Source: Sulfuricurvum sp. (GTDB lineage: Bacteria > Campylobacterota > Campylobacteria > Campylobacterales > Sulfurimonadaceae). From it: a stretch of DNA of 49,310 nt. Below are positions 1,018 through 26,059 of the stretch, piece by piece. The stretch lies in assembly GCF_028712165.1 (NCBI RefSeq), contig NZ_JAQTQR010000010.1:1-49310 (forward strand). The letters are read 5' to 3'. Each line of letters begins with the position of its first letter. Position 1 is the stretch's first letter. Below the pieces are notes generated by a model. The model did no database searches. It was not told where the DNA came from and worked only from the letters and a program-made list of their open reading frames with translations. The translations under genes and the position numbers were made by a program.

Positions 1018-2106
1018 TTACACTTTCCGTAAAGTTTGTTGCAACAGCTTAAACTGTTTTTGACTTTCAAACATTTCCATCGCTTTGAGTTGTCCCGCTT
1101 TTGCGAACTCAAAACGTATATGAGTATCATACGCAAGTCTCTCTAATTTAACGCTCAAATCATCGCTGTCAAACGTTTTAAACAACAGCCCGTTGATCTC
1201 ATTGTCAATAATCTCCAACGGCCCGCCGCTGTCACTGGCGACAACACAGACCCCGCACATCATCGCTTCGATCAGAACCAGTCCGAACGTCTCTTTTTCA
1301 GTCGCCAAAACGACCGTATCGCATACCTGCATCAACGTCTGAGCTTCATTGGTAAATCCGGTGAAAACAGCGATATCACGGTATTCTTCTTGTAAGCGGA
1401 GCAGATATGCCTCATCCATCGTATGACCGACGATCAGCACTTTGGCATCGATCCCTTTTTTGGAGAGTTTCATGAGCGCTTCGAGTACCAGATGCTGCCC
1501 TTTTTGAGCCTCTATCCGCCCCACTATTCCGACTGTAAACGATTTTCCTAATCCCAACCGTTTACGACGGGATTGCTTTTCCTCTTCGGAAATAATCGCG
1601 GGTTGATCGGCACCGATGTAGAGTACTTCTACTTTCGGCCGAACCTCCTCTGGGATAAATTTTTCAATCTGTGTTTTAACCTGCTGAGTCACTGCGAGCA
1701 TCATATCCAGATTTTTATACAGATATCGGTGGTAAAAATCGTTTTTGAACCGGGTCATTGTCATATGGCGCGACTGTACGACACGAGGTTTGCGTTTGGA
1801 AATCCGTTTTGCCATAATGGCGAGAGGAAGGTCTTTTGTCCAGTGCAGATGCACGACATCAATATTTTCCTGATCAATAATTTCCGCAAGGGCACGGGCA
1901 CTGAACCATGAGAAAAGTGTATTACGACGTTTCAGTGGGACAAAAGGAAGTCCATGTGTTTCGTACTGTTCTCTCAATTTCCCTTTTTCATTGATAACGC
2001 TGACGCATTCGCTATGTTCACCGAGATAATGTGAAGCTCGCATCATATAAAGTTCCAATCCCCCCAAATCGGGAGAGAGACACAGTTCGCAAATCTTATT
2101 CGCCAC
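1018..2106 (-). CDS. Glycosyltransferase family 4 (GT-B fold)
   Basis: A 362-residue retaining GT4 glycosyltransferase, probably acting on LPS core or surface glycan at the cytoplasmic membrane. The N-terminal half has the GGLELYM acceptor-side loop (about 15-21). The C-terminal half has GRIEAQKG (196-203) and the EX7E nucleotide-sugar motif (E272 and E280 in KETFGLVLIE), followed by SDSGGPLEII. The start appears to be GTG at 2106, 11 nt inside the end of the upstream GT2 gene, which suggests translational coupling. Sugar donor and acceptor are unknown. Confidence 0.9.
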   Translation of the reverse strand: MANKICELCLSPDLGGLELYMMRASHYLGEHSECVSVINEKGKLREQYETHGLPFVPLKRRNTLFSWFSARALAEIIDQENIDVVHLHWTKDLPLAIMAKRISKRKPRVVQSRHMTMTRFKNDFYHRYLYKNLDMMLAVTQQVKTQIEKFIPEEVRPKVEVLYIGADQPAIISEEEKQSRRKRLGLGKSFTVGIVGRIEAQKGQHLVLEALMKLSKKGIDAKVLIVGHTMDEAYLLRLQEEYRDIAVFTGFTNEAQTLMQVCDTVVLATEKETFGLVLIEAMMCGVCVVASDSGGPLEIIDNEINGLLFKTFDSDDLSVKLERLAYDTHIRFEFAKAGQLKAMEMFESQKQFKLLQQTLRKV

Positions 2107-9945: not shown

Positions 9946-10242
9946 ATGAAAAAAATTGCTCTCGCAATGTTGTTCGCTGGTGTATCTTTGATGGCTGCCG
10001 ATGGTAAAGCCCTAACTGCTAAATGTGCTGCTTGCCATGGTGCTTCTTTCGAAAAAGCTGCTCTTGGTAAATCACCTATCGTAAAAGGTTTGTCTGCAGA
10101 AGCTATCGAAACTGCTCTTAAAGGGTACAAAGCTGGTACTTTGAACAAAGCTGGAATGGGTGCATTGATGAAAGGTCAAGTTGGAGCTTACTCTGACGCT
10201 GATATCAAAGCAATCGCTGCTTACATCGCAACTATCAAATAA
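9946..10242 (+). CDS. Small periplasmic class I cytochrome c (c553 type)
   Basis: A 98-residue monoheme cytochrome c with an Ala-rich signal peptide cleaved near residue 18. Heme is attached at CAACH (C27, C30, H31). The distal axial Met is probably M71 or M75 in KAGMGALMKG. It is likely a soluble periplasmic electron carrier, plausibly feeding a terminal oxidase; in Campylobacterota such proteins donate to cbb3 oxidase. ccoS and ccoI lie next to it on the other strand. GGAGAA lies 5 nt before the start. Confidence 0.92.
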   Translation: MKKIALAMLFAGVSLMAADGKALTAKCAACHGASFEKAALGKSPIVKGLSAEAIETALKGYKAGTLNKAGMGALMKGQVGAYSDADIKAIAAYIATIK

Positions 10243-10248
10243 TACCTC

Positions 10249-10270
10249 ACTCGCCGCACTTGCGGTGAGT
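10249..10270. terminator. Hairpin between convergent cytochrome c and ccoS genes
   Basis: A 10-bp stem (ACTCGCCGCA with TGCGGTGAGT, one G-T pair) directly after the cytochrome stop and 12 nt before the ccoS stop. There is no long T run, but the position suits a bidirectional terminator. Confidence 0.6.
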
Positions 10271-10281
10271 CTCTTCATAAT

Positions 10282-10500
10282 TTATTCCGGTTTATATTCC
10301 CGTTTATTCATTGCTTCTTGTTTACGCTGTTGATTGGCAGCATCGTTGAGTTCCGCTTCGTCATCAAACTGTACTTGATTCATCATCTTGGTCTCATCGT
10401 CAAACTGACCGTTTTTGATACCCCACATAAAAGCCGCCAACGCTATTCCGCCTAAAAAGATCGATGCACCGAGCATCATCGCGATTACCCAAGAGTCCAT
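10282..10500 (-). CDS. ccoS: cbb3-type cytochrome oxidase assembly protein CcoS
   Basis: A 72-residue single-span membrane protein: one hydrophobic helix at about 4-27 (WVIAMMLGASIFLGG) followed by a charged, Asp/Glu-rich cytoplasmic tail. CcoS is needed for cofactor (heme/copper) insertion in cbb3 oxidase. The identity rests on size, topology and its place after the CcoI-type ATPase gene, from which it is separated by 110 bp holding a hairpin repeat. AAGGA lies 5 nt before the ATG. The C-terminal tail is longer than in minimal CcoS proteins. Confidence 0.85.
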   Translation of the reverse strand: MDSWVIAMMLGASIFLGGIALAAFMWGIKNGQFDDETKMMNQVQFDDEAELNDAANQQRKQEAMNKREYKPE

Positions 10501-10517
10501 AATATTCCTTTTTACAC

Positions 10518-10541
10518 ACCAAAGGAATACATCCCTTTGGT
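10518..10541. repeat. Hairpin CCAAAGG/CCTTTGG at the left end of the intergenic repeat
   Basis: An 8-bp perfect inverted repeat (ACCAAAGG ... CCTTTGGT) with an 8-nt loop between ccoI and ccoS. Similar AACCAAAGGG hairpins followed by TTAC occur at 20771. It may be an attenuator or terminator in the ccoI-ccoS mRNA. Confidence 0.6.
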
Positions 10542-10596
10542 TACATTAACACTGGGTTCTCTTCGGCAGAGAGCCCGCGTGCAGTAAACCGCACTT
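10542..10596 (+). repeat. Two-hairpin intergenic repeat, copy 1
   Basis: Segment 10548-10585 matches 16503-16540 at 29 of 38 bases. It folds as a 9-bp stem (10554-10562 with 10568-10576) around loop TCGGC, followed by a short GTGC/GCAC hairpin. Two pairs differ from copy 2 by compensatory changes. Confidence 0.7.
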
Positions 10597-10610
10597 ACAA
10601 TTTTACCTTT

Positions 10611-13004
10611 TTATTTGTAGAGCCATCGAACCCGCATCGAATTACCGACAACGAGGAGCGAACTAAACGACATCGAAATTGCCGCAATCAACGGTATCAC
10701 ATACCCCATCATCGCAAGCGGAATCGTAATCGAATTGTATACCAGTGAGATACCCAGATTTTGTTTAATCAAACCGTATGTCTTGCGACTGATACCGAAC
10801 GCTTCCGTTAATGACGTCAACGAATCATTCATCAGCACTACATCGCTCACTTCAATCGCAATATCACTTCCATTTCCCATCGCAATAGCAATATCAGCCG
10901 CCGCCAATGCCAACAGGTCATTTACACCGTCCCCTGCCATTACAACGATATGTCCGTCCTGATGTGCCGACGCGATAAATGCCGCTTTCCCCTCCGGAGT
11001 AAGATGAGCATGTACCTCATCAATCCCCACCTCTTTTGCTACGCGATGTGCCGCCGCTTCATGATCACCTGTAAGCATCACAACACGAAGGCTGGAGCGT
11101 TTTAATATTTCTATCGACTCATGTGCCCTTGCTTTAGGAAGATCGCGAAGTTCATAGACTGCGACAAGAAGATTATCTACCGCATAATAAAAAATACTTT
11201 TATCGCTAACGGCATCCACAGCGATGCCCAGTTCTTTCATCAGCAGCGCATTCCCTCCGGCAACTACTACACCGTTTGCACGCCCTACCATACCGCGTGC
11301 AGGAATTTCACGTACCTCTTCGAGACTGGTTGAATCTACCCCTTCCTCCGTGCGTTCCAAATATTCCAGTACCCCTCTGCTGATCGGATGTTTGGATGAA
11401 GAGACAAGCGTATGCAATACATTATGATCAAACGGATGATGGAGTGTCGCATAAACCACTTCGGGACGCCCCTGAGTTATCGTGCCGGTTTTATCCAATA
11501 CCACCATCGTCGCTTTTGCCATCGTCTCGATCTGAGCTGCCGATTTAAAGAGGATTCCTCTCTTTGCCCCCAAAGCCAATCCTACCAGCGTTGCCACCGG
11601 AGTTGCAAGAGCCAATGCACACGGACAGGCAATGATTATGACTGAAATCCCGACCATAAGAGAGCGATCAAAACTGTGCGGCCAAAAGAGCCATGTCCAA
11701 AACGTCGCAATTGCCAAAAAGAGAATCGTAGAGGAAAAATGCTGCGAGAGACGATTAGCAAGCTGCTCGATCGAGGGTTTTTGCGCCATGGCGTTCTCTA
11801 AGAGATTCACCAAATTCGAAAGTGTCGAATGAGCAAAATCTTTCGTTGAACGGTAATGGATCAGGGCATCGATACTCGTCGTACCGCTGATGATTTTGTC
11901 ACCGAGGCGTTTAAATATAGGTTCCGATTCTCCGGTAAGGTTGGATTCATCAAAGCTCCCCTCACCAGAGATCACTTCACCGTCGATTGCTGAACGTTCA
12001 CCGCTGCGGATGACGATGACATCTCCCACTTTGACTTCGTTGACATCGACGGAACGGATAGTCTCTCCCTCTAGGATACTGACTTCGCGCGGAATATGTT
12101 TTCCTATAATATCGAGCGTATCGGCAGCATTTTTGCGACTGAGGACTTCGAGAAATTTCCCGAACAGTACGAAGGTAATAATCATCGCTACCGAATCAAA
12201 ATAGGCTTCCCCTTTTTCAAACACGGTTATATAGATAGAATAGAGATATGCCAGACTCGATCCCGTAACGACGAGCAGATCCATCGTAACGGCACGATTT
12301 CGTAGCCCGTAATAGGCTCCGCGATAAAAAATCCATCCGCTGTAAAAGAGTACCGGTGTTGCTAAAAACCACTCCGCCACGTTGAGAATCGTTTTGACGT
12401 CTTGGGTAATTCCCGTAAAATATCCCGCATACTGTGCAACGGCAATCCACATCATATTCATCGTTGCAAACGTCGCTACCGCCATCCGCAGGTAATAATC
12501 TTTACGCTCTTTATTCGCACGTACTTCCTGCAATGAGGCATCATACGGAAATGCGTTGTACCCGATTGCACGGATCATATCGATAATGCCAGAGAGCTTG
12601 ACACTCTCAGGATTCCAGGTAATACGGGCTTTGTTGTTCGTATAGTTGATATGAGCTTCGATCACCCCTTCCATCTTATGGAGTGCTTTTTCATTTAGCC
12701 ACACACATGCGGCACAATGGATCCCCTCAATCACAAGAGAAACTTGAAAGAGTCCCTCTTTCGTTGTCGTTACAAAACGCTCATGAAAAGCAGGAGTGTC
12801 AAAATTGGTGCTTGCTTCGAACTGTTCGGTCGGAGGAGAGAGGGTCGTATCCCCCATTTTGGAATAAAAACTCTCCAACCCTTCGTCTTTGAGAAGATGA
12901 AAAATACCTCGACAGCCGTTACAGCAGAAACGGTACTCTCCGTCATGGATCATTACGTCATCGCTAAATTCCAGATGACAGTGATCGCATTTGACTTTAG
13001 ACAT
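10611..13004 (-). CDS. ccoI: Copper-translocating P1B-type ATPase CcoI (cbb3 oxidase maturation)
   Basis: A 797-residue P1B-type ATPase that moves copper across the inner membrane, probably to supply the CuB centre of cbb3 oxidase. In order: an N-terminal Cys-rich region (CDHCH and CCNGC, about 6-31), a heavy-metal-associated domain with GIHCAACVW (about 95-103), eight predicted membrane helices, TGES phosphatase motif, CPCALA (about 460-465) for copper, DKTGT (about 504) phosphorylation site, and GDGVND. I chose ATG 13004 because AGGGA lies 9 nt upstream; a TTG at 13010 in frame sits too close to it. It overlaps the upstream asparaginase-like gene by 8 nt. Confidence 0.93.
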   Translation of the reverse strand: MSKVKCDHCHLEFSDDVMIHDGEYRFCCNGCRGIFHLLKDEGLESFYSKMGDTTLSPPTEQFEASTNFDTPAFHERFVTTTKEGLFQVSLVIEGIHCAACVWLNEKALHKMEGVIEAHINYTNNKARITWNPESVKLSGIIDMIRAIGYNAFPYDASLQEVRANKERKDYYLRMAVATFATMNMMWIAVAQYAGYFTGITQDVKTILNVAEWFLATPVLFYSGWIFYRGAYYGLRNRAVTMDLLVVTGSSLAYLYSIYITVFEKGEAYFDSVAMIITFVLFGKFLEVLSRKNAADTLDIIGKHIPREVSILEGETIRSVDVNEVKVGDVIVIRSGERSAIDGEVISGEGSFDESNLTGESEPIFKRLGDKIISGTTSIDALIHYRSTKDFAHSTLSNLVNLLENAMAQKPSIEQLANRLSQHFSSTILFLAIATFWTWLFWPHSFDRSLMVGISVIIIACPCALALATPVATLVGLALGAKRGILFKSAAQIETMAKATMVVLDKTGTITQGRPEVVYATLHHPFDHNVLHTLVSSSKHPISRGVLEYLERTEEGVDSTSLEEVREIPARGMVGRANGVVVAGGNALLMKELGIAVDAVSDKSIFYYAVDNLLVAVYELRDLPKARAHESIEILKRSSLRVVMLTGDHEAAAHRVAKEVGIDEVHAHLTPEGKAAFIASAHQDGHIVVMAGDGVNDLLALAAADIAIAMGNGSDIAIEVSDVVLMNDSLTSLTEAFGISRKTYGLIKQNLGISLVYNSITIPLAMMGYVIPLIAAISMSFSSLLVVGNSMRVRWLYK

Positions 13005-13476
13005 ATTCAAACTTCCCTAACCCTTTATTTTTCTTCACCTGATCGTATGGACCCATAACACCTTGCATCACAATGTGAACACCGTTTTGTGCATTCTGAG
13101 CATATCCGATTGCCATAGAAAGATTGGCCGTTGCTTCGATAGGATTAATACCAAAGGGGATCATCGCTCCGGTAAAAACAATCACTTTATCCAATCCCAG
13201 ACTTGCTACGTATTCGGCACTCAGATCCATTGTATCGGTACCGTGAACGACAATAATAATTTTTTCCTCCAATGAAGAAACAGTGTGCGCCAGCACTGAG
13301 CGATCATGGTTATCCATCTCCAAAGAGTCTTTATAAAGCACCCCTTGAAGCGGGATAGAAATCACCATTGATTCTATAATTTGTTCAATAGCTAGATTGT
13401 CGTTCGGAACAAACAGCTCCCCTTTGATCGGATCATACCGTTTATTGAATGTGCCACCCGTATTGAGTATCCGCAT
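12997..13476 (-). CDS. Asparaginase N-terminal-domain protein (stand-alone)
   Basis: A 159-residue protein matching only the N-terminal domain of L-asparaginases. It keeps both catalytic threonine regions: NTGGTF (T9) and HGTDTMD (T80, D81). Normal asparaginases are about 330 residues with a C-terminal domain that helps bind substrate and form the dimer, absent here. There is no sign of a frameshift downstream, because the next gene begins at its end. Short versions are known in Campylobacterota, but activity is not established. It sits between gmhB (TGATG overlap) and ccoI (8-nt overlap) in a tight leftward operon. Confidence 0.85.
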   Translation of the reverse strand: MRILNTGGTFNKRYDPIKGELFVPNDNLAIEQIIESMVISIPLQGVLYKDSLEMDNHDRSVLAHTVSSLEEKIIIVVHGTDTMDLSAEYVASLGLDKVIVFTGAMIPFGINPIEATANLSMAIGYAQNAQNGVHIVMQGVMGPYDQVKKNKGLGKFEYV

Positions 13477-15651: not shown

Positions 15652-15990
15652 ATGAATGTCCAAATTCGCTCTAAAGAAGTAAAACTTACTCAGCATCTTA
15701 ACGACCATATTGCTACCGCTATTGAAAATTTCAAACGTTACCATTTGGACATTACGACCGTCAATGTTATGATCACAAAAGAGAAAAAAGGGGTTGGCGT
15801 TGAATTTGATATGCATATCGCTCATGCGCAACCCGTCGTTATTTCAGATGTCGACGAAGATCTCGACACTGCAATCGATATGGCGATTGAACGGGCGAAC
15901 AAAGCGCTTCGTCGACTCCATGATAAAGTAAAAGACCACCATGCCACTTCACTTCGAGAAATTGAAGTTATCGAAGAAGCAGCAGAGTAA
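15652..15990 (+). CDS. hpf: Ribosome hibernation-promoting factor (short form)
   Basis: A 112-residue protein of the HPF/YfiA (S30AE) family, which binds the 30S decoding region and inactivates ribosomes in stationary phase. It begins MNVQIRSKEVKLTQHL, shows the beta-alpha-beta-beta-beta-alpha pattern, and has the basic helix ERANKALRRLHDKVKDHH near the end. It lacks the C-terminal dimerisation domain of long HPF. ATG 15652 has AAAGGA upstream. trxC follows after 4 nt. Confidence 0.9.
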   Translation: MNVQIRSKEVKLTQHLNDHIATAIENFKRYHLDITTVNVMITKEKKGVGVEFDMHIAHAQPVVISDVDEDLDTAIDMAIERANKALRRLHDKVKDHHATSLREIEVIEEAAE

Positions 15991-15994
15991 GACG

Positions 15995-16426
15995 ATGAGT
16001 AAAATCAACATCGTCTGCCCCCATTGCGGGGGTGTCAATGCTATCCCTGTAAAAGATTCCTACACAAAAGCTGCTTGCGGGCACTGCAAAGCTTCCCTTC
16101 TCGATACCAAGCCTATCTCTGTAGATGCTTCATCGTTTGATCGATTGATGCTCAATGATGAACGACTCATAATCGCTGATTTTTGGGCACCGTGGTGCGG
16201 ACCGTGCCGGAGTATGGCACCCTCCTTCGAAGAAGCAGCTCGCCAGTTCCCTCTCAAAGCGCAATTTATCAAAATCAATACGGAAGAGCAGCAACAGCTT
16301 GGCGGGCGTTTCGGTATCCGATCCATTCCGACTGTCATCGCTTTTAGAAACAATCGTATCGTCGATCAGTTCAGCGGCGCCTTGCCGGCTCCCCAAATTA
16401 TTGCCTTTGTCAAAAAGAATCTGTAA
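15995..16426 (+). CDS. trxC: Thioredoxin 2 (zinc-ribbon thioredoxin)
   Basis: A 143-residue disulfide reductase. Residues 1-35 form a zinc ribbon with two Cys pairs (C8/C11 in CPHCGG and C28/C31 in CGHCKA), the mark of TrxC rather than TrxA. The thioredoxin fold carries FWAPWCGPCR with redox C68 and C71, and a cis-Pro in RSIPTV. An upstream in-frame ATG would add 18 residues lying inside hpf, so I chose 15995, giving the normal length. It is cotranscribed with hpf. Confidence 0.93.
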   Translation: MSKINIVCPHCGGVNAIPVKDSYTKAACGHCKASLLDTKPISVDASSFDRLMLNDERLIIADFWAPWCGPCRSMAPSFEEAARQFPLKAQFIKINTEEQQQLGGRFGIRSIPTVIAFRNNRIVDQFSGALPAPQIIAFVKKNL

Positions 16427-16491
16427 CAATTAATCTTTTTTCGCTATCCTTCCATTATCTCGGTTAACGTCCGCACGCAGCAAAGCTCCGC

Positions 16492-16552
16492 TGGACTACG
16501 CTAACGCTGAGTTTCCTTCGGCAGGATGCCCACATGCAGTTACACCGCGCTC
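16492..16552 (+). repeat. Two-hairpin intergenic repeat, copy 2
   Basis: Related to copy 1 at 10548-10596. The stem around the same TCGGC loop (16509-16517 with 16523-16531) has two pairs changed compensatorily (T-A to C-G and C-G to T-A) plus two mismatches. A further CAGC/GCTG hairpin lies just left at 16478-16493. It fills the gap between trxC and hemJ. Confidence 0.7.
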
Positions 16553-16575
16553 ATTTTTTCATTTAGGATTTCATT

Positions 16576-17022
16576 ATGTATAACTGGATTTTGTGGTTTC
16601 ATATCATCTCGATGGTCTCATGGTTTGCCGTGCTTTTCTATCTTCCACGCCTTTTCGTTTACCATGTCGAAAACGGAACCAATCATGGATTTATCGAAGT
16701 GGTAGAAGTCATGGAGATGAAGATTTACAAATACATCGGCATTCCTGCATTTTGGGCAACATTGCTTTCGGGAACTGCGCTGATTATCCTGTCAACACAG
16801 CACTATAACGGGGTAAATGTATTTCAAATGGGGGGATGGATGCATGCCAAACTAACTTTGGTAGCTATCTTAACTGCCTATTTCTTCTCTCTTGGACATT
16901 ACCGTCTCAAACTCAAAGAAAATACAGCCTATAAAAGCGGGAAGTTTTTTCGAATGTATAATGAAGTACCCACCCTCTTATTGATGGGTATTGTTGCACT
17001 TGTTGTTATAAAACCGTTTTAA
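16576..17022 (+). CDS. hemJ: Protoporphyrinogen IX oxidase, HemJ type
   Basis: A 148-residue integral membrane protein of the HemJ (UPF0093) family, which oxidises protoporphyrinogen IX to protoporphyrin IX in heme synthesis. It has four hydrophobic helices, a conserved His in WFHIISMVSWF (H9), the LPRLFVYH segment, and MHAKLTLV in the third helix. Length is typical. AGGATT lies 7 nt upstream of the ATG. It supplies heme for the cytochromes seen in this window. CopD-family proteins are distant relatives, but length and motifs favour HemJ. Confidence 0.9.
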   Translation: MYNWILWFHIISMVSWFAVLFYLPRLFVYHVENGTNHGFIEVVEVMEMKIYKYIGIPAFWATLLSGTALIILSTQHYNGVNVFQMGGWMHAKLTLVAILTAYFFSLGHYRLKLKENTAYKSGKFFRMYNEVPTLLLMGIVALVVIKPF

Positions 17023-20770: not shown

Positions 20771-20800
20771 TAACCAAAGGGGTTTATTTCCCTTTGGTTA
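20771..20800. terminator. Terminator hairpin after the ferredoxin gene
   Basis: Perfect 11-bp inverted repeat TAACCAAAGGG/CCCTTTGGTTA with an 8-nt loop, followed after a short gap by T-rich sequence. The stem and following TTACGCT resemble the left part of the intergenic repeat at 10518. Confidence 0.75.
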
Positions 20801-20863
20801 CGCTCATTTCTCCTCTTTTTCTTTCTTTTCCGATCTTTAATCTTACTTAAATTATTGTTTGGC

Positions 20864-25892: not shown

Positions 25893-26059
25893 GATTTACC
25901 TTTATATATACGCCACCGGAAAACCTATTTCCGGCCAGTTACGCTTGCCCACTCATGGGGGAGAGAAATTTTAATGAGGATAAGTTGGATTCTCATCCGC
26001 GAGGGCACCTTTGAAAAAGATTCATTAATCTCTTTAGAAGGTACCCAAATTCAAATGGA

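Follow-up and report, generated by a model that had tools for sequence, protein, structure and literature searches.

The window, that is, the whole stretch of DNA analysed here, comprises 49,310 nucleotides of a Sulfuricurvum sp. genome, and two of its intergenic spacers hold full copies of the same repeat (Table 1). Copy A lies between ccoS and a gene encoding a CcoI/FixI-like copper ATPase, with its top strand antisense to both, and copy B is located between the genes of a thioredoxin-family protein and a UPF0093 (HemJ-type) protein. The original prediction, based on the letters of the window, described a two-hairpin repeat in which positions 10548-10585 and 16503-16540 agree at 29 of 38 bases. 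This proved to be the best match to another 38-mer in the window, and five mononucleotide-shuffled windows reached a maximum of 21-22. The matched stem-pair swaps were also found (T10560-A10570 and C10559-G10571 in copy A against C16515-G16525 and T16514-A16526 in copy B); they correspond to columns 53-72 (four pair types) and 52-73 (two pair types) of the second hairpin, HP2, and each is paired in 101 of 102 copies of the family. However, the element is longer than the two hairpins described, with three of them (HP1, HP2 and HP3) over about 95 bp. Copy B has its own HP1, which had been overlooked: it is imperfect, and a model of HP1 only gives it just 11.5 bits (E 0.6), whereas the full model finds copy B clearly.

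Two other hairpins had been listed as relatives, ACCAAAGG plus TTAC at 20771 and a hairpin plus TTACGCT at 25916. Both are present, although neither is a full copy: the former is a solo HP1 and the latter a decayed HP1 with another tail. An HP1 model built without these two items scores them weakly, as the second and third best places in the window.

Table 1. Coordinates of the repeat copies, their parts and neighbouring genes. Positions are those of the window unless a locus is given; R1 is the full covariance model.
Feature	Position	Strand	Remarks
Native terminator-like hairpin (site C)	10245..10275		Between cytochrome c gene 9946..10242 (+) and ccoS (-), convergent
ccoS (FixS) gene	10282..10500	-	Neighbour of copy A
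Copy A, full type I element	10513..10605	+	R1 match 10513-10579, 82.6 bits; right edge read from sequence
HP1 of copy A, ACCAAAGG..CCTTTGGT	10518..10541	+	
Tag TTAC adjoining HP1 of copy A	10541..10544	-	
Conserved linker of copy A	10545..10553	+	Family form GYTAACRCT
HP2 of copy A	10554..10576	+	Loop TTCGGCA
HP3 of copy A, GTGC AGTAAACC GCAC	10579..10594	+	Followed by a T-rich stretch
CcoI/FixI-like copper ATPase gene	10611..13010	-	Neighbour of copy A
Thioredoxin-family gene	15941..16426	+	Neighbour of copy B
Copy B, full type I element	16466..16559	+	R1 match 16466-16534, 68.9 bits
HP1 of copy B, GTCC..GGAC then CTAC	16469..16496	+	Imperfect
HP2 of copy B	16509..16531	+	
HP3 region of copy B and T run	16535..16559	+	Read from sequence
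UPF0093 (HemJ-type) gene	16576..17022	+	Neighbour of copy B
Solo HP1 and TTACGCT	20772..20804	+	HP1 model, E 0.0099 in the window
Decayed HP1 and GTTACGCT	25909..25972	+	HP1 model, E 0.0084 in the window; tail type II-like by eye
Type II copies in the own genome (L036, L038-L043, L045)			
Decayed-HP1-like hairpin GCCAAGGGG..CCCCTTGGC then CTATGCT (L177)	1380-1500	-	

In the orientation in which it was found, the full element reads WWACGC, HP1, CTAC, the linker GYTAACRCT, HP2 with the loop TTCRGCA, and HP3, often followed by a T run. HP1 is a palindrome of variable stem with an inner GGA..CCC, and CTAC, which is GTAG on the other strand, stands directly 3' of its foot in 95 of 103 matches. Its inner dinucleotides are complementary in at least 81 of the 100 copies read (three further copies were unread); among the other 19, several, window copy A included, reflect register errors. 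Columns 16 and 23 of the inner stem form a conserved mismatch, A.C on the top strand and G.T on the GTAG strand, and the pairs of HP1 covary across 23 own-genome copies of both types. The HP3 stem was found in 96 copies, with a two-base TT as the commonest loop (26/96). HP3 is terminator-like, with hairpin and T run, in 52 of 103 copies; the corresponding figure for flank control positions is 31 of 305. About half of the copies carry such a predicted intrinsic terminator.

Type II copies have HP1 and CTACGCT in common with type I and then continue with GCCGCTATGGCACTAAAGCTTGCCTC..GAGGC or variants. The type II cassette consists of GCCGCTATGGC plus GCCTC..GAGGC, and the type I cassette of linker, HP2 and HP3. 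These copies show the GTAG-tagged palindrome HP1 to be the core common to at least two cassettes, and it is also found alone. The BIME arrangement is absent from the element, which has one GTAG hairpin and an HP2 without the tag.

Some copies present additional features. Copies in genomes of family f20 (L182, L186, L190 and L198) have an extra hairpin, such as GAGTTCT..AGAACTC, immediately upstream of HP1. At L213, L193 and L189 there are tandem arrays of two to three elements in units of 86-94 bp. Another repeat (ACAAGGGAACC..TGTTTCTTTGA) is nested inside type I and type II elements (L128; L047 and L050, about 2336, minus strand). Moreover, a piece of the neighbouring gene's tail lies on both sides of the element at L017 (about 36 bp) and L066, and an inverted piece of that tail occupies the position of an HP3 arm.

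A covariance model (R1) was built from nine copies, both window copies included. In the own genome (2.72 Mb, 130 contigs) it found 19 strong places (E < 1e-12) and, up to E 1, another 16 that are weaker, while BLAST with copy A gave 14 places, copy A included, and the HP1 model 30 places at E < 0.01 and 40 at E 10. The full model gave up to 53 matches in one congener, and the copy number is modest for a REP. At E 0.01, R1 matched 28 of 41 genomes, namely the own one, 23 of 24 congeners and 4 of 16 others. Across the order, at least 71 of 248 genomes, from 18 of 73 genera, carry matches (E 1e-6, stricter filters, with at most 20 scored candidates per genome). An exact-pattern scan of genome contigs returned at least 120 stretches, and all of the 80 titles listed name Sulfurovum, Sulfurimonas, Sulfuricurvum, Sulfurospirillum, Hydrogenimonas, or another label of Campylobacterota or Epsilonproteobacteria, except for one 'Proteobacteria bacterium'. 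Viral contigs gave one stretch, with a full copy (L379, 5684-5751) between divergent genes for an XkdF-type phage protease and a phage portal protein, and plasmids gave one match, from Sulfurovum, that covers only part of the query (34%); the phage records searched had no match. Against the 4227 models of Rfam, the window had no match at gathering scores, and the region 10400-10700 none up to E 5.

Thus, the search of the genome and its relatives with a covariance model yielded many intergenic copies with covarying stems, which supports the idea of a dispersed REP-like or RNA element. The copies are not limited to the two in the window, nor do further copies break their stems without compensation.

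Regarding the structure, the stems stay paired across the family while their sequence drifts, and the covariation is strong, as expected from selection on the structure. It was analysed in 103 matches drawn from 100 chosen sources among the own-genome and the congener and outgroup matches, one of which (L117:978) is of type II. Both members had changed in 12 of 15 pairs, and such both-side changes filled 225 cells, compared with 77 in shuffles and 25-59 with slid partners; when extra pairs were added, there were 273 against 93 in shuffles. The fitting of this alignment to the model favours structure. However, an alignment that predates any model (A1) already had 15 both-side cells against 6, with a structure drawn by eye.

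Furthermore, the original prediction overlooked a tie between the loop of HP2 and its flank (RGC with GCY). The loop purine and the pyrimidine of the GCY located just 3' of HP2 are pairable in 101 of 102 copies by alignment count (74 G-C and 27 A-T); in copy A, G10565 of the loop is the base covarying with C10575. Pattern-script counts gave 96/101, and 96/96 with 6 type I copies unread, and the tie is present in both linker subfamilies. It is not a plain extension of HP2, and points to an alternative hairpin, a pseudoknot or a dyad-symmetric protein site.

According to RNA-hairpin energies, HP1 is more stable on the GTAG strand in 102 of 102 copies, whereas 72 of 102 copies have an HP2 that is more stable on the opposite strand. 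When one fixed HP2 pair is set aside, the off-pairs are mostly A.C on the top strand, equivalent to G.U wobbles on the other, in 131 cases versus 22, a count in which the HP1 columns are partly out of register. With respect to a single functional strand, the energies disagree between HP1 and HP2, while the wobble counts lean to the GTAG strand in both.

The gene context of the 103 rows comprised 41 tandem antisense, 22 convergent, 19 tandem sense and 3 divergent positions, with 18 incomplete. When 23 look-alike orthologues were dropped, there were 27 tandem antisense, 17 convergent, 17 tandem sense and 3 divergent (64 classified of 78; the 78-copy set leaves out the mutual orthologues L129, L150 and L168). 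Divergent spacers are therefore rare (3/64 classified). An orientation bias in tandem pairs is not claimed, because the difference (41 vs 19, p 0.006) became 27-28 vs 17 after orthologue filtering (p 0.14-0.17).

The sites of copies A and B (sites A and B) were compared with those of congeners. At site A, 25 of 29 congeneric loci were readable, and the element is missing in 24 of these: 19 have a spacer of 7-32 bases and 5 another sequence, and one genome (G041) is occupied. At site B it is missing in 20 of 20 readable sites, 19 of them with a spacer of 51-63 bases versus 150 here, and the remaining one (L094) longer but different. For eight further own copies, the joined flanks were used as query against 12 congeners, giving 96 site-by-genome cases in which an occupied site would add about 86 bases. 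In 62 of them the joined flanks matched without interruption (57 differing by -37 to +24 bases and 5 by +44 to +52), and each of the eight loci had such a match in at least 4 genomes. In another 19 an insert interrupted the match at the same place, measuring 33-99 bases in 17 cases and about 1.7 kb in 2, and 15 were unreadable. The inserts at the same place indicate that part of the insertions are older than the species, and at least 3 of the 19 split cases coincide with R1 matches (G021:C91, G004:C77, G011:C2), so some insertions are common to several species. None of 30 printed congener sites from six loci other than sites A and B has the element, although these were the best flank matches and lean to empty sites; L372 and L376 hold another repeat or hairpin. 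All this shows that the element inserts into short intergenic spacers near gene ends.

A different dispersed repeat, of GTCATCCTGAAC..GATTCAGGATC type, was seen at the same spots in two genomes (G045 and G015), at L089 and L095 for site A and at L372, which is the orthologue of locus L026 in G045.

Site C, where the window has a native terminator-like hairpin between convergent genes (Table 1), presents a mosaic exchange. In 9 of 24 readable congeners, judged by eye, a family element (type I, type II, solo HP1 or HP1 with HP3) is present instead. The HP1 stem CCAAAGG is found in 6 of these 9, with a tail that is type I, type II or missing.

Taken together, we favour with some confidence, as the more probable reading, a composite, REP-headed mobile repeat of Campylobacterota, about 95 bp long and non-autonomous, whose folded strand would be recognised, most likely by an enzyme that acts in trans or has since been lost. 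By analogy with REPs handled by HUH Y1 proteins (TnpA_REP/RAYT), a folded single strand would be recognised when the element moves, and the loop-flank pair of HP2 (RGC with GCY) could be part of that fold or a dyad-symmetric protein site. Copies would persist after stop codons, where the harm is small, and many of them may act as intrinsic terminators in the top orientation through HP3 and its T run. As for the choice between a REP and an RNA element, HP1 has the GTAG-tagged REP form, and the loop-flank pairing of HP2 suits a structured RNA or a protein-read site.

The main competitor is a functional structured RNA (a 3'-UTR element, attenuator or terminator module) that spreads as a useful part and whose RNA fold is under selection. 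It agrees with the strong covariation, with the HP2 tie in both linker subfamilies, with the scarcity of divergent gene pairs and the terminator-like HP3, and with the replacement at one site of the native hairpin of other congeners; the A.C off-pairs of the top strand would also suit selection on the RNA of the other strand, where they are G.U. Nevertheless, many sites are empty in most of the congeners read, which means that a given copy is rarely needed, the better-folding strand differs between HP1 and HP2, and both orientations occur in tandem gene pairs. We regard it as unlikely on this balance.

A MITE of a DDE transposon, moved by cut-and-paste with terminal inverted repeats and target duplication, is improbable. 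The size and the non-coding nature fit, and by eye a duplication seems present at some sites (CCTTTTTA at site A). Over all 103 copies, the longest exact match between the two flanks had a mean of 5.82, larger than each of 20 re-pairings (largest 5.70). In the 78 copies left without orthologues and odd cases, the value was 5.62 vs 5.44 (sd 0.11), within the range of 15 re-pairings (largest 5.67), and a target duplication is not claimed; the relatives are about 70-90% identical, which blurs the insertion edges in this test. In addition, the presumed duplication does not lie at a constant distance from HP1, and a terminal inverted repeat is not evident by eye. An autonomous partner, with a gene between half-sites, was sought in 1.7 Mb of partly overlapping loci, and the only pair (L305, 717 bp apart) is probably due to chance.

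Slightly more doubtful still is that HP1 is an old gene-end hairpin and the linker-HP2-HP3 cassette a separate mobile unit inserting beside it. The constant stem under changing tails at site C and the solo HP1 of the window speak for it. On the other hand, no HP1 was seen by eye at the element-free sites A and B or at the 30 printed sites of the six loci, and a regex scan of overlapping loci, which over-counts HP1 alone, gave 171 cases of HP1 with HP2 versus 39 of HP1 alone. Judging from the sequence, integron attC sites and CRISPR were set aside. A chance likeness of two terminator-like hairpins, which are frequent in intergenic DNA, has practically no probability, being refuted by the genome-wide copies in many genomes and by a best shuffled match of 22/38 versus 29.

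In the REP-RAYT model, a Y1 transposase is expected near REP copies. Searches with PF01797 and NF047646 revealed no credible Y1 transposase in the own genome: NF047646 had no match, and PF01797 one match of 14.5 bits, below the cut-off, in an 89-aa frame overlapped by a 157-aa frame on the same strand. The congener search gave a Y1 match in 16 of 31 genomes. In the 25 genomes included in both searches, the mean number of repeat matches was 20.1 with Y1 (n=10) and 20.3 without it (n=15, own included), so copy number does not track Y1 presence within the genus; one congener search genome (G003) had two Y1 matches and no repeat match. Among 40 chosen genomes, 22 of the 28 that carry the repeat had a Y1 match, including all 14 of family f20, versus 5 of 12 non-carriers (p 0.03, kinship ignored).

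Moreover, no credible full element was found in 48 sources around the Y1 genes of relatives, which cover 18 of 27 congener Y1 places and at least 30 of 60 of the wider set. The sole HP1-like hairpin there is a weak one (L177 in G008; R1 E 1.2, HP1 model R2 E 0.41), located about 1.5 kb from the Y1 gene, and, as judged by eye, nothing comparable emerged from two less strict scans for tagged hairpins around Y1 genes. A REP-RAYT pair (REPtron) is not supported, as no RAYT flanked by the element was found in the own genome or the 48 sources, save for this hairpin. In G016, three Y1 transposase-like frames (246, 247 and 145 aa) lie close together at L176 2472-6225, two of them near-identical at the start. 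For the composite mobile repeat, an enzyme acting in trans may be the mobiliser, and most likely the enzyme acts in this way or has since been lost.

Sulfuricurvum offers, in one genus, occupied and empty sites side by side together with very strong covariation, which lets the question of REP-like spread without a linked RAYT be tested. The element would account for many hairpins between Campylobacterota genes, and it calls for caution, as a terminator may be a recent insert. It is conceivable, though we would put it forward only tentatively, that it is a phylum-wide module with a pseudoknot or switch HP2, a GTAG-REP head and a portable terminator, which spreads by itself and re-equips gene ends via an enzyme not yet recognised.

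Compared with known systems, the element resembles intrinsic (Rho-independent) terminators in the HP3 and T run of about half of its copies, but unlike native ones, this HP3 belongs to an inserted element. Enterobacterial RU elements and ERIC are non-coding intergenic mobile repeats of about 100 bp. The element is similar to them in size and non-coding intergenic mobility, and it is set apart by description, without sequence comparison, by its three separate hairpins, its GTAG-tagged head and another phylum.

The closest likeness in form is to REPs. HP1 is a 20-40 bp palindrome with a terminal GTAG, as in the structural definition of GTAG-tagged REPs, and their dispersal, with many intergenic copies and few between divergent genes, fits the element. 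In the passages available from Di Nocera et al. 2013 (PMC3733652), GTAG repeats are described in all proteobacterial divisions, including epsilon, Sulfurovum sp. NBC37-1 has GTAG and CGTC repeats, and GTAG-tagged REPs form sub-families with complementary stem changes that are intergenic, mostly in tandem or convergent pairs, and near 3' ends. The short GTAG-ended palindrome, the complementary stem changes and the intergenic location near 3' ends are common to both. In contrast to the GTAG-tagged REPs of those passages, the GTAG hairpin heads here a composite of about 95 bp with fixed HP2/HP3 cassettes and one GTAG each, and no transposase linkage was found for the Sulfuricurvum element. HP1 was compared with the GTAG families by description, and it may already be among the repeats listed for Sulfurovum (PMC3733652).

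As to E. coli, whose REPs need GTAG and a stem bulge according to the portion consulted of PMC8266576, the element is like REP/BIME and TnpA_REP in its imperfect palindrome, GTAG foot, conserved stem mismatch and mosaic arrangement. It is unlike them, as far as that portion describes them, in having no inverted REP pair and an HP2 without GTAG, and no TnpA_REP was found in the own genome or adjoining the repeat in the examined sources. A literature search, judged by titles, abstracts and passages, found no description of the element. The element is real, covarying, mobile and widespread; its head places it among the REPs, and its body is unusual.
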